Source of the DNA: Adlercreutzia hattorii | Lineage (GTDB): Bacteria; Actinomycetota; Coriobacteriia; Coriobacteriales; Eggerthellaceae | NCBI RefSeq assembly: GCF_011405655.1 | Contig: NZ_AP022829.1 | Location: 729,001 to 793,000 of the forward strand | Reading direction: 5' to 3' | Length of the DNA: 64,000 bases | In this document: piece by piece, positions 4,015-26,789 of the stretch | Layout: the number at the start of each line of letters is the position of its first letter | How positions within the stretch are numbered: the stretch's first letter is position 1 | Translations under genes and position numbers: made by a program | The notes under the pieces: model-generated | The model's database searches: none | What the model was told of the DNA's origin: nothing | Seen by the model: only the letters and a program-made list of their open reading frames with translations

Positions 4015-5334
4015 TTATTCGGCCTTAATCGGAACATCGATTCGATCCCGAGCAACGCATTTCCTATTCTTCACAATATAGCATTCTACAAAATGAGGGC
4101 CCGAGAAATGTGTTCTCTCACGGTGCTTGGTCTTATTCGGACCTTTCTCAATCTGGCCCCTAATTTGATTCTTTCTATGAGCTATTTCTCCAACGTTTCT
4201 CACTTTCCAGTAGACGTCATAGGGCTTAGGCACTGTGCATTCAACTATCTCAAAATCAAGAGTTTTATCCTTGTGCAAAAAAACGCCTTCTGCAAGCATT
4301 TCCAATAACTTCCGTGGCCTCCATCCCTTTTGCGTAACACCGCAATCAATTTTTACGGAATACCTGATTTCCACAGGAAATTTGCTTTCAATGAACTCTT
4401 CTGTATCGGTGCTTCCATATTGCTCAGCCCACCGATTTTCTTGTGCTTGACTCTCGCTGCCAACAATGCACTCTTCGAAACGATTGCCGAGAAGGGCAAT
4501 TAATGCTTCTTCTTTTTCCAGTTCGTTTTTCGCGTTATTGAGCTTGTCGTATGCTTTCTTTGCTTTTCTCACAAAAGCCCCTCTACCTTTATTCTCTACA
4601 TGTTGCTTACTCCCTAAAGCTAACCAATAACTTTGCTCTGGATTCTCGGATTTCAGCTTAGAAAATATTTCTTGAAGCACGTTGTAATAATCCTCAAAAG
4701 CAACGTTTCCAAGCTCAATGTCGTCTCTATAGTTGTTGACAAGCGTATCGATCAGCAACCCACCAAAGCACAAACCTATATGTTCCTTCCAAATGCGCAG
4801 AGCGTTGCACGCCCTCGTAAAGTTTTCGCTCGTTTCAGCGTTAGCAATTTTGCAAGCATCTTGCTCGGGGGTTGGCTTTGTTGTTCTCCAAGAACCACCA
4901 TCATTCGTATCTGGGTACTTAAAACTTCCGTCGCTTTGCTCAAATGCTGGCACTAGGTCTATCGTATAGGGTTTGTTGGTGAACGATATTACAACCGCTT
5001 GACCATCGCCTTTGATGTCTGTATTGGGATACTTGCTCTTAAGAATCTTCTTCACGTCCTGAAGCAAAGCGCTTTGTCCATTCCCCTCGCGGTTGTCGTA
5101 ACGACTGTATTCTTCGCCGGGCAACTTGAACACAACATCAAGATCGCTGCATCCATCTACTGCCGTACCTCGGCCAACGGAACCAACTATCACTCGATTG
5201 GATTCTGCGTCGTTACTGTCATAGTAGTGTTGATTAAGCTTCTTTATTACTCCGCCGAGGTCGTCTTCATATTCAGTTACGTCCTTCATGTGAATATCGT
5301 CAAAGAACGCTTCGAATGTTTCTTTGTGATTCAT
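4015..5334 (-). CDS. CBASS CD-NTase with C-terminal AGS-C sensor domain
   Basis: This cGAS/DncV-like nucleotidyltransferase would make a cyclic nucleotide second messenger during phage infection. The 439 residues begin with the SMODS nucleotidyltransferase fold. The GS motif is at 51-52, the metal-binding acidic pair at D64/D66 (SDLDVVF) and the third Asp in TIDLVPAF (D126), so all catalytic positions are present. The C-terminal part (about 310-430, starting VEIRYSVKIDCG) matches the AGS-C sensor type found fused to CD-NTases. The gene lies 9 nt after the SLATT effector stop, forming a compact two-gene CBASS unit with no visible ubiquitin-like or HORMA/TRIP13 accessory (type I layout). The nucleotide product cannot be read from sequence. 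Confidence 0.85.
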   Translation of the reverse strand: MNHKETFEAFFDDIHMKDVTEYEDDLGGVIKKLNQHYYDSNDAESNRVIVGSVGRGTAVDGCSDLDVVFKLPGEEYSRYDNREGNGQSALLQDVKKILKSKYPNTDIKGDGQAVVISFTNKPYTIDLVPAFEQSDGSFKYPDTNDGGSWRTTKPTPEQDACKIANAETSENFTRACNALRIWKEHIGLCFGGLLIDTLVNNYRDDIELGNVAFEDYYNVLQEIFSKLKSENPEQSYWLALGSKQHVENKGRGAFVRKAKKAYDKLNNAKNELEKEEALIALLGNRFEECIVGSESQAQENRWAEQYGSTDTEEFIESKFPVEIRYSVKIDCGVTQKGWRPRKLLEMLAEGVFLHKDKTLDFEIVECTVPKPYDVYWKVRNVGEIAHRKNQIRGQIEKGPNKTKHRERTHFSGPHFVECYIVKNRKCVARDRIDVPIKAE

Positions 5335-5343
5335 GTGTTCTGC

Positions 5344-5877
5344 CTATTCTTCTTTTGACGCAATCGCTCCAAAGCATTCCCTGAATAGCTTTTCTTCGTT
5401 GTCGTTTATCGCACTTTCGGCTTTCTTTACTGCTTTGTCTGTTGTACGCGGCGCATGCTCGCATAACTGCACGTATCTACAACGAATGCAATCGATAGCA
5501 TCCTTATCAATGCGCTTTTTTGTTAATATCGAAGTCAAATCTTCACGAAGGCGGAGATAATCCTTGGCGTAAGACGAATGATCGCAAACAAGGACATCAA
5601 ATGGCTTAGCTTCTCTGTAGATAGCCACAAATGCTGCAATTAAAGCCAATGCGGTTGCTGAGATATTAAGCCATATGAAATCAACCCCTATACTGATGCC
5701 TGAGAGTACTGCTGTGATTGCGATGCACGCTATACTTGCTATTTGAAGCCTATTCCCATTGATTGAATAGATGTCGGCTTGTTCCTCATGGATCTTATGT
5801 GTCCATACAATATCGTTGTATAGCTTTTCGATACCTAGGTGGCCGCCTTCTTCGTTTAACGACATGCGATCTTCCAT
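5344..5877 (-). CDS. SLATT-domain two-TM effector protein
   Basis: This 177-aa membrane protein of the SLATT group (SMODS/SLOG-associated two-transmembrane) is an expected pore-forming CBASS effector that would depolarise or breach the membrane when triggered. An N-terminal amphipathic segment precedes two hydrophobic helices, at about residues 44-64 and 66-87, and a cytosolic helical tail with CIRCRYVQLCEHA follows. I chose the ATG at 5877 because it has a ribosome binding site (acggagga, spacing 7) overlapping the end of res. A TTG at 5898 would extend it by 7 residues. The start is 14 nt after the res stop and the stop is 9 nt before the CD-NTase start, so it is embedded in the type III restriction operon. 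Confidence 0.82.
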   Translation of the reverse strand: MEDRMSLNEEGGHLGIEKLYNDIVWTHKIHEEQADIYSINGNRLQIASIACIAITAVLSGISIGVDFIWLNISATALALIAAFVAIYREAKPFDVLVCDHSSYAKDYLRLREDLTSILTKKRIDKDAIDCIRCRYVQLCEHAPRTTDKAVKKAESAINDNEEKLFRECFGAIASKEE

Positions 5878-5891
5878 AAGCAAATCCTCCG

Positions 5892-8800
5892 TTACCAAAC
5901 GCTCGTTACCGCATATGTTGTTCGCACGCTGTAGGTCACACCATCATCCAGCGCAGCAAAATGCTTGCGGGCACAATCGATCTTTGCGGCCTCTCGCGGG
6001 CGTGTAGCTGGATCAATGTTGCCTCCGCCCTTGGTCTCCACAACGAAGAACACGCGCTTACCGCCGTACTCGTCCTCGGACACATAAGCCCAATCGGGAT
6101 TGTAGGAGCCAACCGGCGTGTCGATGGTGAAACTGTTTGGCAGCTTCGCGAACACCTTCACGTCCTCGGCCATGTCGAGGTCGTAGGCAAATGGGCGTTC
6201 AACAGTCGAAGAGTCGTACACGACATAGCTGTAGATGGACTTGTTGTGCTTAGGCTCGTAGGCATTCTGGCCAAGATAGGCGGTCAGATCCTCAACCTCG
6301 AGCACCTCCATGGTGTACCAGTCGCTCTCGGGGAGCTTCGTGTACTTGATCCCCTTGGAGAGCACCTCTAACTTCGCACGATCGATCTTAGCTGCAACTT
6401 GGGTGAGGAAGGTGGCAGGGTCGATCGCGAACTCATCGAAGCGGCTGCAGCCTTCAAGGATGCGCTTGATCGTGGAGCGCGTGAGACCCACCGCATCCTG
6501 CAACTCCCAGATTGGGTCGGGAAGATCATAGGCGCGGATCGCGGACGTCTTCACGATGGCGGTTCCGGTCATGGAAGTGTCGATGCCCGCTTCGTCAATG
6601 GAGAGATCGGCGCGCGAGCTGATGACTTCGACGGGGCGCACCTCGGGCATGTGAGAGATTCCCTCGATGGCTTTCTCGACGAGTTTGTCGGTATCGACCT
6701 CAAGCTCGTAGCGCGTGCGCTTACGAATCTTCTCCCATAGCTCCTGGAAGGCGGGCTCGTCGGTAACGTCCTTCTTGAGCTCCACCGTCACCTCGTTGCT
6801 CTTGTCCTTGATGACGAGCTTCTTTGCTTTGTTGGAGATAATGGCCTCTACCTGTTCCTTGACAGGCTCGAACTCAGGTGGCAGCTCTACGATGTGGTAC
6901 TCAACGGCGTGCTTGAGCTCGGGGGTTATCGCGCCTTTCTCGGTGACCATCCCAGTATCAAGGAAGTACTCGTAGAGAGCCTTCGACCCTTCGAAGCCGA
7001 GCATCTCCTCGTCGCCGTTTTCCTTCTCGACGATGATCTTGGTGAACGACTCCGGCGTGAGGATGCCGAACTTGTAGCCGTCCTTCTCGAACTCCTTTTG
7101 GAGCCCGCGCGCGAACTCGTCATACGATTCGTTGGCAATGACAGTGAGGACGTTCACGCTCGGATCGTGGCTGCGCTCGCCCTGCTGGTTCACACACAGA
7201 CGAAGACCGCGGCCGATCTTCTGACGCTTGGTGAACTCGTTTCCGCTGTCCACGAGCGTGCATATCTGGAAGATGTTCGGGTTGTCCCAGCCCTCTTTGA
7301 GCGCGGAGTGGCTGAAGATGAACGAGATGTCCTTCACGTCGTCCTTGCCGTCGGGAAAGCTGATCAGACGCTCCTTGGACTGCATGATGGCCTCGAAGGT
7401 GGAGGTGTCGGCAGCGGTCGTGCCGGAGGTGTCCTTCATCTTCCCCTTGCCGTCCATGGAAAAGTAGCCCTGATGCAGAGGAGCCGGATCTATGGGCAGC
7501 GGCACGCCCTTCTTCTCGTAACGCCGTCTCCACGAGCCGTGTCTCACCTCATCGGCATACTCCTCCTCGAATATGCGGGCGTACCCTCCCGCGCTCCAGG
7601 AGCCGTCGTCGTTGTAGACGCGGTACTTCTCCACTTTGTCGATGAAGAAGAGCGAGAGCACCTTGATGCCCAAGGGATATAGCTCCAGTTGCTTTTGCAG
7701 GTGGTCGATGATCGTGCGGCGGATCTGGGCGCGCTTCACGGCTTCGTCGGCCACATTGCCCACAGCCTCTCCGACTTCCAGGTACTCGCCGTTCTGGAAC
7801 TCAATGAACTCGTTTCCCTCTTGGGCAGAGATATTGGTGATTACCCAGCCGCCGCGCACGCCCTCGTAGTCGGGGTTCTCGTTGCTCTTCACGAACAGGT
7901 CGTTGCCGGTCGCGCATGTGACGGACTTCCGCTTCTGCCCACCCTTCTTGTCGCGCACGTCTATGGTAAGTTTCGCCTTGATGGAGCCGCCGTTTGCCTG
8001 CACGGAGTCCAGCTTCACGTAGCTTCCGTTCAGATCCTCGGCCGAGCGCACCGAGTCCACGCAGATTCCCTTCACCAGGTGCTGGTCGAAGGCGTCCACT
8101 GGCGTCAGGCGGTAGAGCATGTTGTAAGGCTCCTTGTGGGTGGCCGAATAGCGCAGCACGAAGAGCGGGTTCAGGCTCTTGATGGCGGCCTTCGCCTGCT
8201 TGGAGTTATCCACGCTCTGCGGCTCGTCGATTATGACGATAGGGTTGCACTCAGCCACGAGCTCGCGAGGGCTACGCCCGCCAATCAGCCGCTCGCTCCT
8301 GCGGTGGAACAGGTTGCCCTTGTTCTCCTCGCCGTCTTTGGAGAACTCCTTGTTGAAGGCCTGGATGTTGATGATCATGACCTCGATGGAGCTTGACAGC
8401 GCGAAGTTGCCGACCGCACCCATGCTCTTGGAATCGTAGACGAACACGTCGAGCGGCGTGCGATCGTAGAGCTCTTCGAAATGCGCTTTGGTGCTCTCGA
8501 AAGACTTGATCACGCCTTCGCGGATGGCCACGGAGGGCACCACGATGATGAACTTGGTGAGGCCGTATTTCTTGTGCAGCTCGTAGATCGAGCGGATGTA
8601 GACGTAGGTCTTGCCGGTGCCCGTCTCCATCTCGATGGTGAAGTCGCGGAGGTGTCCGTCCGTGAGCTCCTCGGTTCGGGCGAGGCAGTTCTCCTCCTGG
8701 ATGCCATGTAGGTTGTCAGCAAGCTGGCGAGGTGAGACGCGGATGCCGTTCGCGTGGCCGACCGCGAACGTTGCCTGCGCACCAAAGCTGGTGTTGCCAG

Positions 8801-8909
8801 AGAATTCGCGGGAAAGGAATTCCTGCCCTTGGAACAGGTTGACCACGGCGTCGATGGCTTGAACCTGATGACTCTGGTCGGATGCGTATCTGAATTGCAA
8901 ATCTGCCAT
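5892..8909 (-). CDS. res: type III restriction enzyme, Res subunit (SF2 helicase plus nuclease)
   Basis: This is the restriction subunit of a type III system. It translocates or slides on DNA using an SF2 helicase and cuts when two unmethylated sites are met. It is 1005 aa, a normal Res length. Walker A METGTGKTYV lies near residues 93-102 and the type III-specific motif II IIDEPQSV near 226. Motif VI-like KRQKIGRGLRL is near 565. A C-terminal PD-(D/E)XK nuclease spans about 935-965 (NPDWAYV, then VVETKGG). The ATG at 8909 follows the mod stop by 2 nt, so the two are cotranscribed and probably coupled. No frameshift or missing motif was seen. Confidence 0.93.
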   Translation of the reverse strand: MADLQFRYASDQSHQVQAIDAVVNLFQGQEFLSREFSGNTSFGAQATFAVGHANGIRVSPRQLADNLHGIQEENCLARTEELTDGHLRDFTIEMETGTGKTYVYIRSIYELHKKYGLTKFIIVVPSVAIREGVIKSFESTKAHFEELYDRTPLDVFVYDSKSMGAVGNFALSSSIEVMIINIQAFNKEFSKDGEENKGNLFHRRSERLIGGRSPRELVAECNPIVIIDEPQSVDNSKQAKAAIKSLNPLFVLRYSATHKEPYNMLYRLTPVDAFDQHLVKGICVDSVRSAEDLNGSYVKLDSVQANGGSIKAKLTIDVRDKKGGQKRKSVTCATGNDLFVKSNENPDYEGVRGGWVITNISAQEGNEFIEFQNGEYLEVGEAVGNVADEAVKRAQIRRTIIDHLQKQLELYPLGIKVLSLFFIDKVEKYRVYNDDGSWSAGGYARIFEEEYADEVRHGSWRRRYEKKGVPLPIDPAPLHQGYFSMDGKGKMKDTSGTTAADTSTFEAIMQSKERLISFPDGKDDVKDISFIFSHSALKEGWDNPNIFQICTLVDSGNEFTKRQKIGRGLRLCVNQQGERSHDPSVNVLTVIANESYDEFARGLQKEFEKDGYKFGILTPESFTKIIVEKENGDEEMLGFEGSKALYEYFLDTGMVTEKGAITPELKHAVEYHIVELPPEFEPVKEQVEAIISNKAKKLVIKDKSNEVTVELKKDVTDEPAFQELWEKIRKRTRYELEVDTDKLVEKAIEGISHMPEVRPVEVISSRADLSIDEAGIDTSMTGTAIVKTSAIRAYDLPDPIWELQDAVGLTRSTIKRILEGCSRFDEFAIDPATFLTQVAAKIDRAKLEVLSKGIKYTKLPESDWYTMEVLEVEDLTAYLGQNAYEPKHNKSIYSYVVYDSSTVERPFAYDLDMAEDVKVFAKLPNSFTIDTPVGSYNPDWAYVSEDEYGGKRVFFVVETKGGGNIDPATRPREAAKIDCARKHFAALDDGVTYSVRTTYAVTSVW

Positions 8910-8911
8910 GA

Positions 8912-10780
8912 CTACGCCGTCCTCAGCTCTATCTCGTAACCGAGCTTGTCGCCGACGCGCTTGAATATCTGCGCGGCGTTGAGCTTGATGGTGTCGGTGA
9001 GAACAGAATCAAGGAAGAACACGCGCTTGGGCTCAAGCGCGGCGATTGCTTCCAGCACCTCGACAGTGAGCCCGTCATTCATGCAGCAGATGAGCTCATC
9101 GGCAGCGATCGAGGTGACGGGGTACCCTGCAACCTCCGTCTTCTCTATGGGAAGCGACAGCTCAAGGCCCCATTTGAGCATCATCTCGAAGATGATGTCG
9201 TCATGGGTGCGACCGGGCTTGATGAGGTTGTCGACAAGTGCGCCGCCCTCCACCTGGTCGAAGTTGGAGCTGTCGAGCTTGAGCACACGAAAACCGATAT
9301 CCGGGAGGGGTTTTAACTCGCCGGTTAATGTAAGCTGTGCGTTAGATGCATCGACTTCAGTTGCGATGCGTTTTCCAATTCGCCTAATTCTTTCTTCGGC
9401 TATTTTACAAAGACTGTCAAAACCTAATTCCTCAGCTTTTTTGTTTCCAGCACAGTTTTCGGGCAGCTGAACGCAGATGCATTTTCGGGTTCCGCCATCA
9501 TTCAGATTCATTTGCATCAGTGCATCCATTGAGCTCGCGGATCCCGAGAAGAAATCCAAAAAGAGAGCTGACTTTTCTGGAATCATGTCGAATAGTTTTA
9601 TCAGAAACTTAGTTGGTTTTGGATAGGAGAATATCTTTGCATCGCCAAAAATATCCAGTATTTCATTTGTTCCATGCTGTGTGAAAACATCATCAATTAT
9701 TGATTGCAATTTGCCTCTTCGAACGGTGCCATCTTCGAGCTTGAGATACTGTTTTGTCTGAACACTCCATCCTCCATCAATGCTCCTCACAAATTCAATT
9801 TCATTGTTCTCTAAAGCTCTTTGAACGCGCTCCTTGCTCCACAGCCATTGGCGTTTTGGCCAAACGCTCGTTCCGTCTGGAGCTGTTATGGGAAATACAA
9901 GGTTTTCACGAGCATCAAGAGTCTTATTTGCCTCCAAAGGGTGAGTCCTGTAGGGCCCTCTTTTCTCGAAATTCAAATCAGTTTTTGTATAATACCTTTG
10001 AATAGACTCATCCGTTAAAGGAACAGTGATGTCATCAATTTCTGATAAGTCTTTTGCATATATCAACACATAGTCTTGAAGTGTTACTAAATACTTTTCT
10101 TTTGGTCCGCCTCCGTAGCGCTTCTTCCATATTATTGTGTCAATAAAATTTGGGGCACCAAATACCTCATCGCAGATGAAACGCAACGAATTCAATTCGT
10201 TGTCGTCAATTGAAATGGCAATGATCCCATCTTCAGAAAGTAGTTCTCGTGCAAGCCTCAGTCTTGGGTACATCATACTGAGCCAGTCGGAATGATAGCG
10301 CCCACTTGTATCTGCGTTGGATTGCCCGCTCAATCCAGCTTGCTTTTTGTAATTTTCAACCGAGTCCTGGAAGCTGTCCTTGTACACGAAGTCATGGCCG
10401 GTGTTGTAGGGAGGATCAATATAGATCATCTTCACCTTGCCGTGGTAGCCGCGTTGCAGGAGCTTCAGCACTTCAAGGTTATCGCCCTCGATATAAAGGT
10501 TCTCAGTGGTGCCCCAATCGACGCTTGCATCCTCATCGGGACGAAGGGTAGCAGTTGAAGGCATTTGCGCCTGACGAATGGCATCTGCTTTTCCAGGCCA
10601 GGTGAAGGCGTAGCGCTCCTGCCCTTCATCAACCTCGTCTCCCAGAATAAGCCGCAGTTTCTCGAAATCGATTGAGCCATCGCCTTCGACGGCAATCTCC
10701 GGAAACAGCGCCTTCAGCCGCTCAACGCGCTCAGCAACCAAATCTTTCGATTCCAAGTCCACTTTTTCGATATCACTCAC
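8912..10780 (-). CDS. mod: type III DNA methyltransferase (Mod subunit)
   Basis: This adenine-N6 DNA methyltransferase provides modification and target recognition for the Mod-Res complex. The 622 residues start at GTG (10780) with the ribosome binding site gaggag 6 nt upstream. Motif IV MIYIDPPYNTG (about 140-150) precedes motif I FLDFFSGSAS (about 405-414), the beta-class order expected for type III enzymes. The gene is a compositional mosaic: both ends are GC-rich like res, while about 9330-10290 is clearly AT-rich. That segment encodes the middle of the protein, including the target-recognition domain, which suggests exchange of specificity. An IS256-type element now sits about 50 bp upstream and separates mod from its former upstream partner. 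Confidence 0.93.
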   Translation of the reverse strand: MSDIEKVDLESKDLVAERVERLKALFPEIAVEGDGSIDFEKLRLILGDEVDEGQERYAFTWPGKADAIRQAQMPSTATLRPDEDASVDWGTTENLYIEGDNLEVLKLLQRGYHGKVKMIYIDPPYNTGHDFVYKDSFQDSVENYKKQAGLSGQSNADTSGRYHSDWLSMMYPRLRLARELLSEDGIIAISIDDNELNSLRFICDEVFGAPNFIDTIIWKKRYGGGPKEKYLVTLQDYVLIYAKDLSEIDDITVPLTDESIQRYYTKTDLNFEKRGPYRTHPLEANKTLDARENLVFPITAPDGTSVWPKRQWLWSKERVQRALENNEIEFVRSIDGGWSVQTKQYLKLEDGTVRRGKLQSIIDDVFTQHGTNEILDIFGDAKIFSYPKPTKFLIKLFDMIPEKSALFLDFFSGSASSMDALMQMNLNDGGTRKCICVQLPENCAGNKKAEELGFDSLCKIAEERIRRIGKRIATEVDASNAQLTLTGELKPLPDIGFRVLKLDSSNFDQVEGGALVDNLIKPGRTHDDIIFEMMLKWGLELSLPIEKTEVAGYPVTSIAADELICCMNDGLTVEVLEAIAALEPKRVFFLDSVLTDTIKLNAAQIFKRVGDKLGYEIELRTA

Positions 10781-10795
10781 TATGTACTCCTCAAT

Positions 10796-10829
10796 TTAAA
10801 GACCGAGTTTTTCAAAAAATACCCTGCTT
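10796..10829 (-). pseudogene. 3' tail of the disrupted GHKL-ATPase gene
   Basis: These bases encode the last codons of the ATPase gene. Read from the copy of the 8-bp target duplication (10822-10829), they give a VFFEKLGL-stop ending. They continue in frame from the 12343-13636 segment when the IS256-type element is removed. The restored stop (TAA, 10796-10798) lies 16 nt before the mod start, and its downstream bases include the mod ribosome binding site. Confidence 0.85.
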
Positions 10830-12350
10830 GATCGCGTCCCGAACGTTGGTGTAGCGGACGTTTCGCGTGCCGAATAGTCGCGGCACGAGAAACGGCCATC
10901 GCTAGAATCGTTTGTTGCGAAGTAAACCGATTCGAGAAAGGCGATGACCGCAATGGACACTTTAGCAGCAATCGGCGCCGACGCGCCCGAGATTCCCAGA
11001 TTCGACGACGGCATGGTCAACATCAACGAGCTCGTCAGGACCCTCGCCGAGGCGATCGTCAACGAGATCATGGACGCGCAGGCCGAGGACGCCTGCGCCG
11101 AGGGCAACCAGCGCAACGGCTACCGGGAGCGCCGGCTCCTCACCAGCGTCGGGCGCATCACGCTGCGCATCCCGAAGCTCAGGCGGGGGACCTACTTCCC
11201 CGAGGACCTCATCGAGCGCTACAGCCGAGTCGACCGCGCCGTGGTGGCCGCGGTGGCCGAGATGGTCACCAGCGGGGTGTCCACCCGCAAGGTGGAGAAG
11301 GTGGCCCGCGCGCTGGGGGTCGACCGCATGAGCGCCAGCCAGGTGTCCCGCATCTGCGAGTCCCTGGACGCCGCCGTGGCCGACCTGCGGGGGCGACCCC
11401 TCGGCGGCGCGCGCTTCCCCTATCTCTGGATAGACGCCACCTACCTCAAGTGCCGCGACGGCGGCCACGTCTCCAGCTGCGCCGTGGTCACCGCCATCGG
11501 GGCCGCCGACACCGGCCACCGGGTCCTCCTGGGCGTGGACTCCGCCGACACCGAGGACTACGCCTCGTGGCGGGCCTTCCTGCTCTCGCTGCGCGAGCGG
11601 GGCGTCGCCGGCGTGCGCTGCGTCACCTCGGACGCCCACGCGGGCCTGAGGCGCGCCATCGAGGAGGTGTTCCCCGGCGCGGCCTGGCAGCGCTGCGTCG
11701 TGCACCTGGAGCGCAACGTGTGCGCGCTGGCCCGCAACAGGCGCGAGCGGGCGCTCCTGGGCTCGGTGATGCGGGCGGTGTTCGCGGAGTCGGACCCCGC
11801 GCTCGTGCGCGAGCTCTACCACCTGGCGGTCGACGAGATCGGCGCGGTCAGCGCCGCGGCCGGCGCGCTTTTGGAGGAGGCCGAGGCCGACGCGCTGGCC
11901 TACCTGGACTTCCCGCCGGCGCACCACCGCAGGCTGCGCACCAACAACGTCCAGGAGAGGATGAACCGGGAGATCAAGCGCCGCGCCAACGTCGTCCAGG
12001 TGTTCCCATCCAGGAAGTCGCTGATCCGGCTCCTGGGCGCGGTGCTGTCCGAGATGGACGAGGACTGGGCGGCGCGGCGCTGGTTCACCGAGGAGTCGAT
12101 ATCGGAGGTCTTCGAGGACAGGCGCCGCTGGAGGCCCGGACGGCCGCCGGCGTACGAGGGCACCGCGGCGGAGCACGCCGCGCGCATCATCGCCGTGGTG
12201 ATGGCCGACGGGGGCGCCGTCAGGAAGGCGGCGTGATCCAATGGTGTAGAATAGCAGCGTTCTAGGGATGGTTCGATCTCCTCGGACGGCCTCCGGCCGC
12301 CCTCGCAGATCGAATCGCTACACCAACAATCGGGACACTACCCCCTGCTT
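10822..12350 (+). mobile_element. IS256-family insertion sequence with target duplications
   Basis: The element spans 10830-12342 (1513 bp). Its imperfect terminal inverted repeats are 10830-10856 and 12316-12342, matching at 22 of 27 positions, with the core gttggtgtagcg at the inner ends. It is flanked by a perfect 8-bp direct repeat, ccctgctt, at 10822-10829 and 12343-12350, the duplication size known for IS256-type elements. One plus-strand transposase gene fills it. It inserted within the final codons of the GHKL-ATPase gene. The coordinates include both target duplications. Confidence 0.9.
10944..12236 (+). CDS. IS256-family (mutator-type) transposase
   Basis: This 430-aa transposase belongs to the IS256/mutator family and catalyses DDE transposition. 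Family features in order are an N-terminal Asp/Glu-rich region with EGNQRNGYRERR (near residue 52) and a DNA-binding segment. Next come the catalytic core with WIDATYLKCR (first Asp near 163) and TSDAHAGLRRA (second Asp near 229), and the highly conserved ERMNREIKRR with the catalytic Glu (near 338). It is complete and therefore possibly active. It is transcribed against the defence operon. The first ATG (10944) is used, with an alternative ATG 3 codons later. Confidence 0.93.
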   Translation: MTAMDTLAAIGADAPEIPRFDDGMVNINELVRTLAEAIVNEIMDAQAEDACAEGNQRNGYRERRLLTSVGRITLRIPKLRRGTYFPEDLIERYSRVDRAVVAAVAEMVTSGVSTRKVEKVARALGVDRMSASQVSRICESLDAAVADLRGRPLGGARFPYLWIDATYLKCRDGGHVSSCAVVTAIGAADTGHRVLLGVDSADTEDYASWRAFLLSLRERGVAGVRCVTSDAHAGLRRAIEEVFPGAAWQRCVVHLERNVCALARNRRERALLGSVMRAVFAESDPALVRELYHLAVDEIGAVSAAAGALLEEAEADALAYLDFPPAHHRRLRTNNVQERMNREIKRRANVVQVFPSRKSLIRLLGAVLSEMDEDWAARRWFTEESISEVFEDRRRWRPGRPPAYEGTAAEHAARIIAVVMADGGAVRKAA

Positions 12351-13636
12351 CTCATCTTCGAATCGGCAAGGATCTTGTCATAGGGAAGCACTTCGATGCT
12401 GGCATTTAAATCATCAACATATACATGCCAACCAAGACCATCGGGCGTTTGTTTGAAATTTCGGCGCCGCATTATTTTTTCTAAAGACGCAGGAACATCG
12501 CAGACCGCATATAAGTAGATTCGTGTATTTTCATTTACCCTAATAGGGCGACCCGTTGCATCAATAGCATTACCTTCTTTGATTTTTTCTGCGTATTCTT
12601 GCAGCTGATCAATAGGGTTGTCTTTTCCATCGTAATTGTCACGCATGGGTCGTTTGAGCTCAAAAATCGATATCGACTCAAAAGTATGACCAGGTCCATC
12701 TTCGTCTGAAACAAGAACAGGGTGATCCAGAAGCAATAAATCCGGCCTCTTTTTGCCAGCGCTAGCGCCAAGTGAGATATCAGAAGCTAAATATTGGCTG
12801 TATGTAAGACGCTCATCAATCAACCAGAGGTTGTGAGCTTCGTAAGATACATCTTCAGAAGTGGCACGAACGGGAAAAATGAGTTCGTGAAGGAATTTTT
12901 CGAGTTCGTATTTTTCGTCTGGCCTCTTCTTTAAGCTGGCTTCGAATAATTGCAGTACTGCCTTTCGATGTGCAATGTATTCCGCAAGGGAGGCTTTGTT
13001 TATATCGACAAGTTTTCTCGTGCATTCAGCAAACTCGTGTTCGTAGTCTTCACTGGAAAGAGAGTTGTTGTTGATCTTAACCAATAGCTCATCGTTTTCC
13101 TTTGCAATATCCTTCTCCAGCTGACGTTTCGCATCATGGAGGCTGTCCTCGATATTGCTAACACTTGAACCAAATTTGATTCCTTCTATTGCTTGAGGCA
13201 AGTGCTTCATTAGCGGTTTATATTGAGGTGCTTCCTCAGTTATATATTTCCTTACTGCCTCTTCTCTTTCATTTACTGCTTCGTCAAAATAGTCTTTTAG
13301 GATGTCTTTTACACACTCCTCAACTTTCGAATCAATTTCTTTTCGACTCGGCTCAATGCTCTCAAACAGACTATTTTCTTCGACAAAAGAAAAAGAGAGT
13401 CGATTTGCATTAACTTTCATGTCGAGATACTCGCTCGTCAGGATTCCGATAAAGTAGAGCGAATGCTTTTGTTTTAGTAGAGAGCCTAGTCCGTTGAAAC
13501 TGCTATCTAGTTTCAACTCATCTACGCACCGATTGTTAGCACAGAACATCACCCGATTTGTTTTGTCTAGTTTTACTTTGCCTATATCATCTATAGGCAT
13601 TTCAAGACCGATTAGACTGAATGTATATCCAGCAAT
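12343..13636 (-). pseudogene. central/C-terminal part of disrupted GHKL-ATPase gene, with PD-(D/E)XK motif
   Basis: An open frame from ATG 13600 to a stop inside the IS256-type end (12338) would give a 420-aa product. The host frame, however, is open back to the IS1595-type junction at 13636 and continues the N-terminal fragment in frame. The region is mostly helical and charged (coiled-coil-like around residues 90-220 of this piece). Toward the C-terminus it has a PD-(D/E)XK-like pattern: RPDLLLLDHP, then about 20 residues later SIFELKRP. This suggests a nuclease domain fused to the ATPase. The last three codons before the stop derive from target duplication plus IS sequence and replace the native ending. 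AT-rich relative to the IS elements on both sides. Confidence 0.8.
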
Positions 13637-13659
13637 AATCCTCCTTTGCAGATTGTGGG

Positions 13660-14718
13660 CTAGGAGGAGGACTCCTCATCGTCTGAACTGGGCGACCTCG
13701 CGTAGAAGTCCCTGTATCGGAGCGTTTTCGGGTTGCGCATTGCCCGATCCAACACGAACGCCGCCTTTTCCATCTTGTCGCGGGGAGGGTTCATCATCAC
13801 CCAGAAGAGGTCGAGGTAGCCGCCGAGCCTGGTGCGGTCGAACCCCGTGTGGGAGTCGAGGAACAGGCGCAGCAGATAGCAGAGCCGGTTGACCGCGGCG
13901 AGCGGGTTCTCCGGGTCGGGCAGGCGCTTGATGAGCTTGGAGTTGTGCCGCTCGCTGCGCAGGCCCAGCTCGCGGACCAGGCGGTTGTGGCCGTTCTCCA
14001 TGTCGTGGACCAGCGTCGAGCCGCGCGCCACATGGCCCCCGAAGGCGGCGAGGGTGCGCGCGCCGCTGGTCTTGCCGAGCCCCTCGTCGGCGAACACCGA
14101 CGCCCCGCTCCCGTCGCAGCCGATGCCGATGCAGTGCTTCCCCTTGGAGAAGCCGCCCGGGACCTTGGAGCCGTCGGGCATCCTCGGCTGGTCCGCCAGC
14201 GGCAGCGGGTACATCATCTCGTCGATCTCCACCCGGCCGGCCAGGGCGGCGCCCTCCTGCACCCCCTCCAGCACCGCGAGCAGCTTGGCGAGCCAGTACG
14301 GCGGCGTGGTGGCCGACCTGCGGCCCGACCGGGCCGCGCCCGCCAGGCTGCCGTAGGAGAAGACCTCGAGGAGGAACTCCGTCCAGTCGGCGACGGGCAG
14401 CTTGCGGCCGTCGAAGACGGTGCCGGTGGCCGGGTTGAACGCGCGGCCGCAGGACAGGCAGCGCCACCGGCGCACGCCGTTGGCGTCGCGCCCGTTGCCC
14501 TCGATCGCCGGCGAGCCGCAGCGCGGGCACGCGTCGCGGTCGTAGCCGTTGAAGAAATCGGCCTCGCCGACCAGGCCGGCGCCCGCGTGGCGGTAGCGGT
14601 ACATGTCGCGGTGGCAGTCCCTGACGATCCTCTCGGCCGGGGACAGCTCGCCGTCGCCGGCGCCGTCCCACGGCGTGGCCGACGGCGCCGGGCGCCGCCG
14701 CTTCTCTTCTCCGCTCAT
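13660..14718 (-). CDS. IS1595-family (ISXO2-like) transposase with zinc ribbon
   Basis: This is a 352-aa transposase from the ATG at 14718. An in-frame upstream start at 14790 would add 24 residues that lie on the hairpin region. The N-terminal zinc ribbon has CPRCG near residue 64 and CLSCGRAFNP near 88. The ISXO2-type DDE core begins with VEIDEMMYPL (near 170) and continues with LVHDMENGHN (near 240). A C-terminal LFWVMMNPPRDKMEK segment follows. It looks complete. The strong hairpin directly before the start codon probably limits expression by read-through from the host operon. Confidence 0.85.
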   Translation of the reverse strand: MSGEEKRRRPAPSATPWDGAGDGELSPAERIVRDCHRDMYRYRHAGAGLVGEADFFNGYDRDACPRCGSPAIEGNGRDANGVRRWRCLSCGRAFNPATGTVFDGRKLPVADWTEFLLEVFSYGSLAGAARSGRRSATTPPYWLAKLLAVLEGVQEGAALAGRVEIDEMMYPLPLADQPRMPDGSKVPGGFSKGKHCIGIGCDGSGASVFADEGLGKTSGARTLAAFGGHVARGSTLVHDMENGHNRLVRELGLRSERHNSKLIKRLPDPENPLAAVNRLCYLLRLFLDSHTGFDRTRLGGYLDLFWVMMNPPRDKMEKAAFVLDRAMRNPKTLRYRDFYARSPSSDDEESSS

Positions 14719-14719
14719 G

Positions 14720-14767
14720 GTGGAAGTCCTCGCTGCCCGGAGGGACGGCGACGCCGAGGACTTCCAC
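14720..14767 (-). promoter_or_regulatory. perfect 13-bp hairpin just upstream of transposase start
   Basis: Arm 14720-14732 (gtggaagtcctcg) is exactly complementary to 14755-14767, with a 22-nt loop. The structure ends 2 nt before the transposase ATG (14718) and covers its likely ribosome binding site. I infer that in long read-through transcripts the site is hidden, which is a known way for IS elements to avoid activation by flanking promoters. Confidence 0.55.
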
Positions 14768-14887
14768 ATCGCAAGAGCATCGCCGTCCATCCGGGCGGTC
14801 TCGCGGATGGATGTTCTGTTGCCTGCGATTATAGGGCAACGCGCGCGGCGGCGGATGCGCTACCCACATTCTGCAAAGGAGGATTTT

Positions 14888-15591
14888 CCAGCAATTTCAA
14901 AACTTCGCGTCTCGCCTTTATCGCTAAACAGCTTCGCAAAAGCCTCGTTAAGATCAAGCTCCTTATCTCCATCGACAAATACAATTTGTGGGCAATCGTC
15001 GAGGAGGAAAAATGGAGCACAGTGATGGATTACGGCACCAGCAATTTCTTCAAACTCAATGGGCATGGATTTGGCGTATTCAGCTCGCAATCCGAATAGA
15101 TGCACGATGGTTCCTATCGATCCGGTAGGCTCTTCAACGCTATCATCATCTAAGGTGGATGCAGAAAGGTTGAAACGGAATTTGCGGCTGTATTTTTCAT
15201 CGCCTTCCAAATAATTGCTCTCTATATCTGCGTTTTGAAACACCTTTAGCCAGCAGAACCGACCCACGCCTTTGCCGCCCCTTGACGCTTTATATGTAGA
15301 ATCCGATTGAAGAAAAGACTCGAAGTTTGGTCCATTAAATCCAATACCGTTGTCACGAATGCAGAAACCGGAGACGGTTGCTGTAGGCAGATCATCAAGA
15401 GGAAGCTGTATGCCTCTCTCGATCTCAACAACTATTTTGCCACCACTGAAGCTTACGTCTTCTAGCCGCCGATCCTCTATTGCCTGAATAGAGTTTACGA
15501 TGCTCTCATACAAAGGAAATAAAACCTCACTTTGAGCAAGCTCGAAGTTACTTACTCTTCCGGCTAAATTGACCCCAAATTCCTTGGTCAT
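14888..15591 (-). pseudogene. N-terminal GHKL-ATPase part of disrupted gene
   Basis: This is the 5' part of a HATPase_c_3/MORC-like GHKL ATPase. Visible motifs are the N-box (ESIVNSIQAIED, about residue 30), G1 box (IRDNGIGF, about 78), G2 box (GGKGVGRF, about 105) and a G3-like GSIGTIVHLFG (about 170). The start is ATG 15591, in an ATGA overlap with the DUF4391 stop and well spaced from the ribosome binding site aaaggag. An ATG at 15597 is too close to it. Host coding is interrupted at 14888 by the IS1595-type element, and the present open frame runs 9 codons into the IS (stop at 14860). Joined with the other two pieces it gives about 671 codons in frame. As it stands, the ATPase domain is separated from its nuclease-like C-terminus. 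Confidence 0.85.
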
Positions 15592-16370
15592 CGGCATATC
15601 TCCTTTATCTCATCCATAACGCTTTCGCGTTGTCGCTCCAGTTTTCTCATCTCAACGCGAAGCTTCGTCGTATCCGCAAGCGTGGCGTCCTTCGACTTCT
15701 TCGCATCCTTCAATTCGTTAATCTTCGACGTTAGCGCATTCATCTCTTTCACGTGTCCCATAAGCAGGCCAGCGTCTGCATCTTTGCAAACTGGGTAGAA
15801 GCCAAGGACTTTCACGGAACGCGCCAGCAGAGTTCTGTCGCCCAAAGCAACCAGATAATCCAACAAGGTAGTTTGCGGAAGCGTCGCAAACGACAGGCGC
15901 TCCAAATAGGGCGCGTATTCAGGACTCTCCGCTTTGAACGGCCCGCTGGAGTAGATCTTCTCTGTCACGAAGGATCCGTGTTCCGCGAAGCTCTTGCGCC
16001 GCAGAGCGGCAGAGACTGCATTGCCTGAGTTCGCGAAACCCTCCGCAAGGATCACCGTAGGGTTCGGAAAGCAACCATGCACCATGCGCAGCGCCTCCGC
16101 TATCCCGGTCGTGGAATTCAGGCCGCACGTCAGGAAGATGACCGATTCGATGCCGTAGGCATCGTCCTTCACGGGCAGGATGCGGGAGTTCGACTTGTTC
16201 AGGCTCGCGAAGAACCGCACGTCGCGCACCTTGTCCAGAAGCTTGATGGACGTTGCTGATGCCTTGGCAAGCTTTGCCTGTTCAGCCAGCTGCGTCTTGG
16301 GGACGCGCCGCTCTCCCGCAAGCGCGCCATCCGGCAGCTTCAATATGTCGTTCCACGCAATCGTCTTCAC
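15588..16370 (-). CDS. DUF4391 domain protein
   Basis: The 260-aa protein has the DUF4391 layout. An N-terminal segment carries RRVPKTQLAEQ, a central alpha/beta part holds the conserved TCGLNSTTGIAEAL region, and a C-terminal coiled coil (about 205-255, MNALTSKINELKDAKKSKD onward) completes it. The biochemical role is not established. The family commonly sits between an SNF2-type helicase and a methyltransferase in defence loci, as here. The start is GTG at 16370, overlapping the helicase stop by 4 nt (GTGA). Its own stop overlaps the GHKL-ATPase start by 4 nt, so the three are tightly coupled and likely act together. Confidence 0.8.
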   Translation of the reverse strand: MKTIAWNDILKLPDGALAGERRVPKTQLAEQAKLAKASATSIKLLDKVRDVRFFASLNKSNSRILPVKDDAYGIESVIFLTCGLNSTTGIAEALRMVHGCFPNPTVILAEGFANSGNAVSAALRRKSFAEHGSFVTEKIYSSGPFKAESPEYAPYLERLSFATLPQTTLLDYLVALGDRTLLARSVKVLGFYPVCKDADAGLLMGHVKEMNALTSKINELKDAKKSKDATLADTTKLRVEMRKLERQRESVMDEIKEICR

Positions 16371-19300
16371 ATCAGCACCACGAAGCTCACGATGGAGTAA
16401 TCATCGAACCCGAGCACAGCGCCGCCGCCGACCTCTCCGACAGAGAAGAGCTGCTCGATTCCTTTGGCTTCCTGCACTCCCGTGATGTCTGAGACGGCGG
16501 TCTGGAGAAGTGCGTTCGCGTGCGCCATGTCGGTACCGTCTTTTGTCTTTCTGTTGAAGCGCTTGCAGAGGTCGTGCAGGGGCTGCGCCTCTCCATCACA
16601 GGTTGCCCTCATGATGTCGAGCGCCGCCTTGGGCTGCGTGTGCGGAGACATCACGCTGTCGTTCTCGGTGACGTATATAACATAGTAGGGAAACGTCGGA
16701 TTCGTGTCCTTGGGGTCGCGACTCTCGTCGTTCTGCTTCAGGCAGAAGACGATGCCGGGTTCCACGTCGTCTGCAAGCTCCGGCGGAATGGGCGTGACGG
16801 CGCAGAGCCCACATGGTGAGTTCTCCAGCAAGCCCGGATGATTCTGGACGTAGCGCTTCAGCTCCGCGCGGAAATCGTCGAATGCGAAGTCCGTGATGGA
16901 TATGCCTCCGGACATGTCCTCCAGGTTGAGCACTTCCTCCTGGAGCGCTTGGAGCTGCTGGCGGCGGTACTTCAGGTCGTTCATCTCGTCGTTGCGCTTT
17001 CCTTCGAGCACGTTCTCCTCGCCGGTCGCGCTGGCATCCAGCAGCGCCATGCGTCCCTTCACGCGCCCTTCCAGCTGGATGTACTCGTCGAGCTCGATAT
17101 CCGGCCAGAAGTTCACCAGCTGGATCGTCGTGTTGGTTGACCCTAGGCGGTCGATGCGCCCGAAGCGTTGGATGATGCGCACCGGATTCCAATGGATGTC
17201 GTAGTTGACCAGACAGTCGCAGTCCTGCAGGTTCTGGCCCTCGGAGATGCAATCCGTGGCGAAGAGGATGTCTATCTCGCCGAGCCGCCTGCGCGCGTCC
17301 GACAGTTCCTTCGACACAGGCGAGAAGTGCGCAAGAGCCGTGTCGAACGTGGTGCGCTTGACCTTAAGTGAATGAGTCCGAGCGACGTCGCCCGTCACCA
17401 TGGCGCATTCGAGCCCGAGTTCGTTTGCCAGCGGTTCGGCCAGCTGGTCATAGAGGTAATTCACCGTGTCGGCGAACGCGCTGAATACGAGGATTTTCCT
17501 GTTGCCGCCGTTGAAGGGGCTGGCGGCCTTTTGCTCGATGAGCTCGCGCAGGACGCGGAGCTTCTCATCGCGCTCGGGCGTGATCTCGCGGGCGTAGCCA
17601 AGCAACTGCTCAAGCACGCTTATATCGTAGTCGATGTCCTGGCCGAGCTTCAGCCGGTCGAGATCGGCGGGATCCACGTGCACCTTCGACGAAGCGCGGT
17701 ACTCCGCGAAATCGTCCTCGTCGTCGAACATGGCCGCGTCAATCTGCGCCATGTCACGCTGGGCGACCAGCCGCTCCGCCTTATCGAGCATCTGCTTGGT
17801 GGCGAGGTTGCCCTCGTAGATGCGCTCAAGCGAGATTCTGAACGCGTCGATGGAGCTCTCCAGGCGCTTGAGCAGGTTTACGCGCATGAGGTTGGCCACG
17901 GCCTGGGTGCGGTTGATCTGGCTGTCGAAGTCGCGACCCCATGTGTCGCCGTACATGTCCACGTACTTCTGCTGGCGTCCCGGCATGACGTAGGCGAGCT
18001 GCTGGTACTGCGCGAACGTGAGCGATGCGATCATGTCGTTCAGCTCGGCTATGGAGGGAAGCTCGCCTTTCGAGTCAATAGGCGGGTGGAGCGAGACGGG
18101 CTTGCGGCGCTCGGGGAACTTGGTATCGCCTGCCGTATAGTACTTGTCTATGTGCTTGCGGCTGCGTGCGATGGTGAGCACATCGAGCAGCTTGAAATAG
18201 TCGGCGTTCACGGCGTTCACGAACGACTGGGTGGTGCGCTCGGCGTCGTCGAGCTTGCTCCACTCCTGGAATCGCTGTTGCGCCCTGCGCGTCACGCTGT
18301 TGATGGAGGGGATGCCGTCCTCTGCCAGGTACTCGTCGTCGCCCTCGGTGATGATCTCTATCTGGTTGCGCAGGTCGAGCAGACGGTTGTTCACGGGAGT
18401 TGCCGACAACATGAGCACCTTCGTGCGGATGCCCGACTTGATGATGTCCTCCATCAGGCGGTCGTAGCGGCTTTTCTTGGTGGTGTCGGTCGGCTTGTTG
18501 CGGAAGTTGTGCGACTCGTCGATGACGATGAGGTCGTAGTTGCCCCAGCGAAGCGTCTCCAAGTTCACGTCTCCCGAATATCCGGTGTAGCGCGAAAGGT
18601 CGGTGTGATTGAGCACCGTGAAGCTCAGGCGGTCGTCTGCCAGCACGTTGCGCTCGTCGTTGTCCGCTGCGTAGAGCGTCCAGTTCTCGCGCAGGCGCTT
18701 GGGGGCGAGCACGAGGATGCGAGCGTTTCTCTCCTGGTAGTACTTCATGACGGCGAGCGCCTCGAAGGTCTTTCCAAGACCCACGCTGTCGGCGATGATG
18801 CAGCCCTTGTACTTCTCCAGCTTGTGAATGGCACCGACCACGGCGTCCTTCTGGAAGTCGTAGAGCTTGTTCCAGATGACCGAGTCCTCAAGCCGGAACT
18901 CCGGTTTTATGGGGTCGTCCTCGTCATCAGCCATAAAGTCCCTGAAAAGGTGATAGAGGGTGAGGAAGTAGATGTACTCGGGAGCATTGTCCTTATAGAG
19001 GGTCTGGACCTGCTCGGCTACCGCATCGGTCACTTCCTCCACCATGGCGGGGTTGTCCCACACGGAATCGAACATGGCCTTGAGGCCAGCAGCCTCGGTC
19101 TTGCCCTCATAGTGGCTCACACCCATCACAGTCTCGGGTCTGCGGTCATATCCGAGACCTTCCAAGGTGAAGTCGGCAGATGCCCCCATGAAGGCCTGCG
19201 CCTCGCCATTCGCGTTGTCTATGTGATAGGTGCCGCCCGGCTGGATGGCACCGCAATGCTTGGCGGACTTGAATGTCGCCTTCTCGCGGATCCACTCCGC

Positions 19301-19618
19301 GCACTCCATGGCAAGTGCGCGCTGGTTGAGGTTGTTGCGCAAGGTAAGCTCAAGTCCCGTTCCGCCTATGCCCTGTTCGCGCGAACGGCGCTTCAGCTCG
19401 AACTCCATGGGCTCCTTGGCATCCTGCATGCGCTTGACGAAGGTGGGCTCGCTGAACACGAAGCGAAGCTCTTCAACTTTGGAAAGGGCATCCTTCAGCT
19501 CGCCGTATGCGAACACCGTGAAATACGAGCTGATGATGGAGAGCTTCGCATCGTTGCCGATGGACTCTGCCAGAGCGTCACCGAGTCGCTCCTCTCCGAT
19601 GTTGCTCAGGAACTCCAT
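16367..19618 (-). CDS. PLD-like/SNF2-family helicase
   Basis: This 1083-aa protein combines an N-terminal phospholipase D-like domain (residues about 1-170) with an SNF2-type SF2 ATPase. The N-terminus (LSNIGEERLGDALAE...) fits the HKD-type fold, but I do not see a perfect HxK pair, so nuclease activity is uncertain. Motor motifs are Walker A DSVGLGKTFEAL (about 280), motif II LIVIDESHNFRN (about 362), motif III LMLSATPVNN (about 402), and the C-terminal helicase half with ILFATDCISEGQNLQ and RIIQRFGRIDRLGS (about 780-830). It is the first large gene of the operon, 2 nt after the RHH regulator, and would be a DNA translocase acting with the DUF4391, GHKL and methyltransferase partners. Confidence 0.9.
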   Translation of the reverse strand: MEFLSNIGEERLGDALAESIGNDAKLSIISSYFTVFAYGELKDALSKVEELRFVFSEPTFVKRMQDAKEPMEFELKRRSREQGIGGTGLELTLRNNLNQRALAMECAEWIREKATFKSAKHCGAIQPGGTYHIDNANGEAQAFMGASADFTLEGLGYDRRPETVMGVSHYEGKTEAAGLKAMFDSVWDNPAMVEEVTDAVAEQVQTLYKDNAPEYIYFLTLYHLFRDFMADDEDDPIKPEFRLEDSVIWNKLYDFQKDAVVGAIHKLEKYKGCIIADSVGLGKTFEALAVMKYYQERNARILVLAPKRLRENWTLYAADNDERNVLADDRLSFTVLNHTDLSRYTGYSGDVNLETLRWGNYDLIVIDESHNFRNKPTDTTKKSRYDRLMEDIIKSGIRTKVLMLSATPVNNRLLDLRNQIEIITEGDDEYLAEDGIPSINSVTRRAQQRFQEWSKLDDAERTTQSFVNAVNADYFKLLDVLTIARSRKHIDKYYTAGDTKFPERRKPVSLHPPIDSKGELPSIAELNDMIASLTFAQYQQLAYVMPGRQQKYVDMYGDTWGRDFDSQINRTQAVANLMRVNLLKRLESSIDAFRISLERIYEGNLATKQMLDKAERLVAQRDMAQIDAAMFDDEDDFAEYRASSKVHVDPADLDRLKLGQDIDYDISVLEQLLGYAREITPERDEKLRVLRELIEQKAASPFNGGNRKILVFSAFADTVNYLYDQLAEPLANELGLECAMVTGDVARTHSLKVKRTTFDTALAHFSPVSKELSDARRRLGEIDILFATDCISEGQNLQDCDCLVNYDIHWNPVRIIQRFGRIDRLGSTNTTIQLVNFWPDIELDEYIQLEGRVKGRMALLDASATGEENVLEGKRNDEMNDLKYRRQQLQALQEEVLNLEDMSGGISITDFAFDDFRAELKRYVQNHPGLLENSPCGLCAVTPIPPELADDVEPGIVFCLKQNDESRDPKDTNPTFPYYVIYVTENDSVMSPHTQPKAALDIMRATCDGEAQPLHDLCKRFNRKTKDGTDMAHANALLQTAVSDITGVQEAKGIEQLFSVGEVGGGAVLGFDDYSIVSFVVLM

Positions 19619-24773: not shown

Positions 24774-25676
24774 CTAGCAATTTCCTACGTAGACGTGCTT
24801 CAAATAGCGCCTCGCTACGTTGGCCAGGTGGTGTACGGTTTCGGGTGGGGTGGCGGGGCGGTCGGTAAGGCGGTGGCAGGGGAAGAAGCGGGTCAGGTGG
24901 TAGGGGGTCGACGGATCCAGCGAGGCGAGCCATTGGGCGGCCTCGGCGATTTCCTGGTCGCTGTCGTTCAGGCCGGGGATGACGAGCGTCGTTACTTCCA
25001 GGTGACAGCTGGGTGTGGCAGCCAGCACTTCTATGGTGTGCTTCACAGTTGCCAAGTCACCGCCGACGAGGTCGTAGAAGCTCTGGGTGAAGCCCTTCAG
25101 GTCGATGTTCGCGGCATCGATGAACGGTGCCACCTCGTGCAGCGGGCCGTCGTTCACGTAGCCGTTGGATACCAGCACGTTGACCAGGCCACGCTCGTGG
25201 GCGAGGTGCGCGGTGTCGCGGACGAACTCGAGGCCCACGAGCGGCTCGTTGTAGGTGAAGGCGAGCCCGATGTTGCCTTCGGTCACAAGCGATGCGGCCG
25301 CATCCACCAACTCGGCCGGTGCGATTTCGCGCCAGGGCACGTCGCGCTCGCCGGCGCAGGCGATGGAAGCGTTCTGGCAGAACGGGCAGCGCAGGTTGCA
25401 GCCGTAGGAACCTACGGAGAGCACCTTGCTTCCAGGGCGAAAGCGGGCCAGCGGCTTCTTCTCGATGGGATCCAGTGCCAGTGACGTGATGCGCCCGTAG
25501 TTGGCGTCCACCACCTCTCCACCCTCGGCGACGCGCGCACGGCAGAGCCCCGTTTGCCCCTCGACCAGGGCGCAGGCATGCGGGCAGATCGGGCACACGG
25601 CACGATCTGCCCCAAGATCGCGGGGCTCTTCCTTCGAAGAACCCTGCGCTGCAATTCTGCCTTCGGTATTTTCCAC
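24774..25676 (-). CDS. amrS: AmmeMemoRadiSam-system radical SAM enzyme
   Basis: This 300-aa radical SAM protein of the AmrS/PflA-activase-like family is defined by its CxxxCxxC cluster motif, GCNLRCPFCQ (near residue 83). An N-terminal Cys-rich segment (CPICPHACALVEGQTGLCRAR, about 27-47) precedes it, and a GNIGLAFTYNEP motif and the family-typical HLTRFFPCHRL lie near the C-terminus. The AmmeMemoRadiSam partners were not found next to it. I chose GTG 25676 with ribosome binding site aaagagg. The frame is open much further upstream, but that part is the antisense of the SDR gene. It is divergent from the SDR gene, with 114 bp between. Confidence 0.85.
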   Translation of the reverse strand: MENTEGRIAAQGSSKEEPRDLGADRAVCPICPHACALVEGQTGLCRARVAEGGEVVDANYGRITSLALDPIEKKPLARFRPGSKVLSVGSYGCNLRCPFCQNASIACAGERDVPWREIAPAELVDAAASLVTEGNIGLAFTYNEPLVGLEFVRDTAHLAHERGLVNVLVSNGYVNDGPLHEVAPFIDAANIDLKGFTQSFYDLVGGDLATVKHTIEVLAATPSCHLEVTTLVIPGLNDSDQEIAEAAQWLASLDPSTPYHLTRFFPCHRLTDRPATPPETVHHLANVARRYLKHVYVGNC

Positions 25677-25790
25677 GACGCCTCTTTTTCTCGCTCGCCT
25701 TGTTTGTGCGGCCTCTATGGTAGCGCAAAGGATGCCTACTGATAGAATTATCGTTGTTGGCTGGCATTCTCGCGTAGAAAGAAGACAAGC

Positions 25791-26591: not shown

Positions 26592-26634
26592 CAGAGCGAG
26601 CGGCAGCAGAGCAGCTGAGCGCATCCAGCGCCCG

Positions 26635-26665: not shown

Positions 26666-26789
26666 CATGCGCCGAAGGGCGACTTTCTGCCGAACGCGGG
26701 TTCTGCATTGATGGGTGTTTTGGTCAGCGATAAAATGCGGCCTCGTGTCTTTCCGCCCGCGACGATCGAAGGAGCCGAGTTTTCCCGCC

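Follow-up and report, generated by a model that had tools for sequence, protein, structure and literature searches.

Different nearest relatives for the centre and the ends of a type III mod gene in Adlercreutzia hattorii

The mod gene of a type III restriction-modification system in Adlercreutzia hattorii is very probably a mosaic, in which a central module of other kin, bearing the target-recognition domain (TRD), sits between ends like those of mods from its own order and from Bifidobacterium. The middle of the gene forms a block of low GC3, its synonymous divergence from the closest relative differs from that of the ends, and its kinship is reversed with respect to theirs. The gene was analysed within a window of 64,000 nucleotides, to whose first letter all positions refer.

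The mod gene and its surroundings

The mod gene (8912–10780, minus strand) is an open frame of 622 codons encoding 622 aa, with a GTG start and, as judged by eye, a GGAG upstream of it. Matches to Pfam N6_N4_Mtase (8.5e-26) and PADLOC MTase_III (6.6e-182), together with a predicted structure (mean pLDDT 83.8), identify the product as the modification subunit of a type III system, a beta-class amino-methyltransferase. The Mod fold of the predicted model aligns with EcoP15I Mod (4zcf_A) at Z 38.0 over 501 residues with an rmsd of 2.8, and 6k0w_C is a second structural match at Z 38.4. The catalytic DPPY motif IV (aa 122–125; 10406–10417, minus strand) lies just outside the low-GC3 block described below, while the DFFSGS stretch (aa 409–414; 9539–9556, minus strand), which we take to be motif I, lies inside it. 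DPPY stands before the TRD and motif I after it, and nine of these residues (D122, P123, P124, Y125, D409, F410, F411, G413 and S414) are invariant across 28 aligned mods including that of A. hattorii.

For EcoP15I Mod, the part of the structural account drawn on here (PMC4490356) gives an N-terminal domain at residues 14–60, a methyltransferase domain at 62–262 and 390–516, a TRD at 263–384 and a C-terminal domain at 539–644 that contacts Res. The A. hattorii protein resembles it in fold and in the order DPPY, TRD, motif I, C-terminal domain, but differs in having only 28% identity in the structural alignment and a different TRD. By alignment with EcoP15I, the TRD proper probably occupies about aa 257–355 (minus strand) and the C-terminal domain, which is GC-rich and outside the block, probably about aa 506–622 (8915–9265, minus strand). 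The central specificity region with other kin than the ends is taken below as aa 206–400 (9581–10165, minus strand).

The res gene (5892–8909, minus strand; 1005 aa) begins two bases after mod and encodes the restriction subunit with ResIII helicase and endonuclease domains (Pfam ResIII 3.9e-16 and RE_endonuc 8.2e-34; PADLOC REase_III 9.1e-291). The mod gene was found in 0 of 8 further genomes from the same genus. The gene also has none of the simple sequence repeats that switch phasevarion mods on and off, no tandem repeat scoring at least 30 being found in 8800–10960.

Directly after res, at 4015–5898, lie genes for a SMODS/AGS-C nucleotidyltransferase and a SLATT_4 protein with two TM segments, a CBASS-like pair. 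On the other side, about 50 bp upstream of the mod start, there is an IS256-type element (10836–12336) with a Transposase_mut ORF (10944–12236) and 21-bp inverted repeats, flanked, by eye, by an 8-base target duplication. Beyond it, 12338–15597 holds two AT-rich minus-strand ORFs of 245 aa and 420 aa, split by an element with 23-bp inverted repeats (13637–13659 and 14863–14885); the two ORFs are possibly parts of a single gene, situated between DUF4391 and mod, that is absent from this place in Ellagibacter. Neither ORF has a Pfam match, and the 420-aa ORF has a weak match to SduA (DUF4263; E 0.00045). A DUF4391 protein and an HKD/SNF2-type helicase follow upstream at 15588–19618. The order helicase, DUF4391, mod and DEAD/DEAH gene recurs on a Providencia plasmid (L194), and on a Phaeobacter plasmid (L193) with an extra gene before the final DEAD/DEAH gene.

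Kinship of the centre and the ends

The ends of the A. hattorii mod resemble those of seven mods of its own order (L003, L004, L007, L102, L103, L111 and L112) and two of Bifidobacterium (L025 and L026), with identities to these nine of 0.64–0.74 over aa 1–165 and 0.59–0.64 over aa 490–621. The centre (aa 206–400) is only 0.23–0.30 identical to the same nine. Its own kin, at 0.55–0.59, are mods from Negativicutes (L027), Thalassolituus (L024), Thalassovita (L023) and Phycisphaerales (L050) and two enterobacterial plasmid mods, and the ends of these centre-kin mods are only 0.36–0.53 and 0.22–0.40 identical to those of A. hattorii. Five triplet scans placed the block from aa 187–217 to aa 381–454 with gains of 40.2–72.8, against a permutation maximum of 12.7 (100 permutations each). 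In AU tests on the end data, grouping the A. hattorii mod with the TRD set was rejected (p 8e-10), a set which in any case does not form a single clade on the flank tree, even when the A. hattorii mod is left out, and grouping it with the flank set was not rejected (p 0.35). On the TRD data, grouping with the flank set was rejected marginally (p 0.046, with long branches), and joining A. hattorii to the TRD set gave a likelihood lower by 13.0 that was not rejected (p 0.115). The centre and the ends thus have different nearest relatives, the tree test being strong on the end data and marginal on the TRD data; triplets and AU-test groups were picked after the identity table of ends and centre was known.

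The swapped target-recognition domain proposed in a preliminary description, made from the sequence alone, is supported by this reversal of kinship, with which the triplets agree. That account had set the block as the specificity region between DPPY and the C-terminal part. The TRD does lie inside, but the exchanged stretch extends beyond it, to the remainder of the methyltransferase core up to the C-terminal domain.

The one close relative of the gene is found in Ellagibacter isourolithinifaciens DSM 104140 (L022, G028), which belongs to the same family, the Eggerthellaceae. The pieces of its mod are 93% and 87% identical to that of A. hattorii, and the two genes share similar ends, the same TRD class (89% identical over aa 206–400) and an AT-rich centre; they differ in that the Ellagibacter gene is interrupted by insertion sequences and the block is near synonymous saturation between them. 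Synonymous differences rise from 77 of 224 codons (0.34) outside to 172 of 293 (0.59) inside aa 140–489 (Fisher p 5e-8), and divergence is therefore not uniform along mod. The block with the edges first proposed, 10290 and 9330, tests at p 1.8e-7; when left free, the change points settle at aa 156 and 498, with a gain of 19.2 that none of 300 permutations reached. The preliminary description had named divergence uniform along the gene, lacking breakpoints near these edges, as the outcome that would speak against a swap; this is not what we observed. Synonymous differences in the neighbouring genes number 183 of 852 (helicase), 65 of 217 (DUF4391) and 251 of 934 (res) codons. The block-to-end synonymous ratio is about 1.7–1.8. 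Unless the block has a faster synonymous rate, the two blocks therefore parted before the ends did, or a distant allele of the same class took the place of one of them.

The Ellagibacter mod (L022 4446–6000 and 6991–7114; L137) is broken at aa 274/275 by an IS110-type element and cut at aa 604 by an end resembling the IS256-type element of A. hattorii. Its aa 601–622 and res lie on another contig, the res frame being open over 1000 matched codons.

Among homologues, exchange is directly visible: the ends of three pairs (L016/L105, L075/L140 and L081/L066) are at least 0.96 identical, with centres at 0.27, 0.50 and 0.39, respectively. The exchanged stretch in these pairs runs from aa 185–191 to aa 431–461, and in all six genes its GC3 lies below that of the ends. 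Nine pairs were run; in the six others, whose ends are more diverged or partly shared, the edges fell at aa 102–220 and 456–587. Over 9180 mod pairs, end identity and TRD identity are correlated at 0.16, and the TRD is less than 0.35 identical in 468 of the 578 pairs whose ends are more than 0.6 identical.

Two genomes, G104 and G127, have mod split after the TRD (aa 398/406), the pieces being 3.4 and 6.2 kb apart (L132 4856–10102 in G104; G127:C2 70440–78502), and a frame of these 446 aa is also present in G609. The insert in the G104 gene (L132) carries an EF-G-like ORF, presumably tetracycline-resistance-like, and a DUF4368 ORF.

A donor was sought with the TRD (226 aa) as query. The best long match besides the genome itself was 35% among 296 genomes of the phylum; among 297 genomes of the order, Ellagibacter matched at 88–89% and the next long match was 37% (in both lists the conserved start also gave short matches, at up to 55%). 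Viral contigs gave 12 pattern matches, none of them a relative, the best of the 10 matches listed from 27 phage records was 32%, and the best from 443 plasmid records was 60.4%. The searches thus found no recent donor, and, Ellagibacter aside, the closest TRD found is 60% identical. Plasmid mods of Klebsiella pneumoniae (pKSB2_6C_1) and Enterobacter cloacae (p53EVA-3), L191 and L192, share the TRD class of A. hattorii, with 60.4% identity over 217 aa and 59% over aa 206–400, but differ from its mod at the ends, which are only 36% (aa 1–165) and 22% (aa 490–621) identical.

Low GC3 in the centre of mod and across the family

In 300-base windows, GC is 0.56 at 9050–9349, 0.37–0.43 within 9350–10249 and 0.51–0.54 at 10250–10699; the sampled A. 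hattorii genome stands at 0.62. GC3 is 0.58 over aa 1–165, 0.37 over aa 185–480 and 0.77 over aa 490–621, and 0.80 in the adjacent res. Of the earlier statement that both ends are GC-rich like res, the C-terminal half therefore stands, and the N-terminal end is intermediate. Maximum-likelihood change points with three levels delimit a block at aa 141–498 (9287–10360, minus strand) with GC3 of 0.37 inside and 0.61 and 0.80 outside, and a two-level fit, with the same start at aa 141 (about 10360), puts its right edge at aa 485, position 9326. A middle of about 950 bp with lower GC and different codon use, as originally described, is confirmed by these fits, and the edges then given, 10290 and 9330, are close to the fitted ones. 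The drop persists after amino-acid normalisation (−0.31). By the alignment with EcoP15I, the block begins within the first half of the methyltransferase domain, continues through the TRD and the motif I-bearing second half, and stops near the C-terminal domain.

As a control we took 129 mechanical ORFs of at least 400 aa from 400 kb of sampled A. hattorii sequence. Of these, none matched or exceeded the likelihood gain of mod (31.4) for an internal low-GC3 block, and 1 showed an internal GC3 drop as deep. Two more ORFs in the window have weaker low-GC3 blocks, at 24774–26708 and 61284–62672 (gains 21.9 and 20.4); they encode a radical-SAM protein and a LysR-type regulator and are not restriction-modification genes.

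Homologues were gathered by patterns and searches from the A. hattorii query, with the best 80 of 560 confirmed in genome contigs. Of 174 loci besides that of A. hattorii (numbered up to L175), L021 and L137 had no match at 1e-10 and 172 were kept; with A. hattorii these made 173 sequences, from which 20 were removed for length or N, 2 for an in-frame stop and 15 as duplicates. The remaining 136 are the A. hattorii mod, 76 from genome contigs, 31 from genome searches and 28 from viral contigs. Since the homologues are related to one another, TRD classes were counted too, 82 with that of A. hattorii. GC3 is lower in the middle than at the ends in 134 of 135 homologous mods raw and in 132 of 135 after amino-acid normalisation, and the TRD classes agree (81 of 82). 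The normalised valley is present in 57 of 57 homologues with flank GC3 above 0.6 (59 such homologues in the raw count, the flank mean being taken differently). It deepens with host GC3, is present in 28 of 28 at flank GC3 0.3–0.45 and is nearly gone below 0.3 (6 of 9 negative). Strong low-GC3 blocks, with median edges at aa 177 and 447, occur in 80 of 135 homologues and strong high blocks in 0 of 135. The AT-rich centre had itself been read as a sign of a swap; because the valley is common to 132 of 135 homologues, low GC is not evidence of a swap, and we dropped it as proof. No report of a low-GC3 TRD across the family was found in the open-access literature searched.

The valley is missing from Res at the 78 loci holding enough of res, with 38 of 78 negative and a mean of −0.004. 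At these loci GC3 lies below that of Res in the TRD in 76 of 78, in the N end in 46 and in the C end in 43, and the slope of GC3 on Res is 0.54 for the TRD vs 0.88 and 0.93 for the mod ends; within TRD classes the slope of TRD GC3 on the host is 0.35. Low conservation is not supported as the cause of the valley: Res windows of at most 0.35 identity to those of A. hattorii keep a GC3 of 0.69–0.76 (30 GC-rich loci), and mod aa 501–600, which are not highly conserved, keep 0.75–0.79.

Explanations and significance

In the explanation we prefer, the central module starts somewhere in aa 141–217 and stops somewhere in aa 381–498, and homologous recombination in the conserved stretches that flank it is the probable route of exchange. 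Such an exchange would alter the sequence that is methylated and restricted, while the interface with Res would be kept, as the DPPY end and the C-terminal domain, Res-binding by comparison with the EcoP15I structure, would stay in place. The low GC3 of the module may reflect a pool of TRDs that circulates separately and has this composition. Counting against a mosaic, there is no change of class between A. hattorii and Ellagibacter, and their GC3 blocks start apart, at about aa 141 and about aa 214. Also counted against it are the marginal tree test on the TRD data, the absence of a donor in the searches, the generality of the valley and the lack of the gene in the 8 further genomes of the genus. 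Our confidence is slightly lowered by the difference in block start, and by the naming of triplets and tree groups after the identity table.

Without any exchange, the TRD region might simply sit at a low-GC3 equilibrium of its own, through weak codon selection, mRNA selection or less biased gene conversion than at the ends, with TRD sequences merely diverging fast. The near-universal valley fits such an equilibrium (132 of 135 homologues, 81 of 82 classes), as do the 80 strong low blocks against no strong high ones and the counts of 28 of 28 at flank GC3 0.3–0.45 and 6 of 9 below 0.3. We nevertheless consider it unlikely, as it does not account for the closer match of the TRD to other backbones than to related ones, or for the excess synonymous divergence of the block when other same-class pairs mostly have none, and TRD GC3 tracks the host only in part (0.54 vs 0.88 and 0.93; 0.35 within classes). 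The AT-rich centre could also serve regulation, for instance as a promoter of res inside mod, and such res promoters are known in EcoP1-type systems. However, promoter-like sites in 8800–10950 number 3 (2 on the strand of the gene) vs 2.2 (sd 1.5) expected, and the block consists of open, conserved coding sequence over about 1 kb, which makes this reading extremely improbable.

The excess divergence from Ellagibacter might instead reflect a faster synonymous rate in a codon-unbiased stretch, in which case the pair would be no evidence of recombination. Block GC3 is indeed low in both genes (0.35 and 0.35). In a two-state model of GC3 relaxation with a shared rate, a common equilibrium is better by 6 log units and requires an ancestral GC3 of 0.06, but once the block is given its own rate both compositional models fit equally. 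On the other side, synonymous differences amount to just 12 of 36 in a low-GC3 stretch outside the block, aa 47–86 (GC3 0.47 and 0.50), though this is one window only. The 22 homologue pairs sharing a block class have a median block-to-end ratio of 1.02, though most are near synonymous saturation and several share members. Three of the 22 have a ratio of at least 1.75, with ends at 0.10–0.11 and blocks at 0.50–0.53, and look like exchanges. We therefore give a faster rate about as little credence as an equilibrium without exchange, and regard the mosaic as much the better account.

Type III mod TRDs in general may form a gene pool that moves between backbones and phyla so often that it never takes on the synonymous composition of its hosts, a reading we hold tentatively and put slightly short of an even chance. 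It rests on a centre GC3 that is lower than in the ends for 132 of 135 homologues and lower than in Res for 76 of 78 loci, with a little over half the slope of the ends on the host. The partial slope favours a circulating pool, whereas the valley at flank GC3 0.3–0.45 and the lack of strong GC-rich centres call for either an AT-biased pool or an intrinsic pull.

Domain exchange in type III mods, to which the preliminary description had appealed, is documented in Neisseria. In the part of the modA study drawn on here (Gawthorne et al. 2012, PMC3311624), modA of Neisseria and Haemophilus influenzae has a variable DNA recognition domain between conserved 5' and 3' parts, some of these domains having been taken en bloc from unrelated species, and that of modA12 has 28% GC vs 40% and 40%, which was read as further evidence of horizontal transfer. 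As far as that part goes, the A. hattorii mod is like modA in its conserved ends and its variable, low-GC recognition domain. It is unlike modA in having no phase-variation repeats, a GC-rich host (0.62) and matched TRDs in other phyla, and in being represented by a single genome of its species. It very probably belongs to the mod alleles made by TRD exchange, of the modA type, a kind already published.

For a type III system of the Eggerthellaceae, module exchange is hereby documented and the exchanged unit mapped, leaving the ends with DPPY and the Res-binding domain in place. The analysis also carries a caution for the family, as low GC in the specificity domain is near-constant among mods and can therefore neither date nor prove a swap. 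If the TRDs do form a pool, low GC would be its lasting mark, not that of a recent event, and mod would offer a natural example of a gene whose two parts evolve under different effective hosts.
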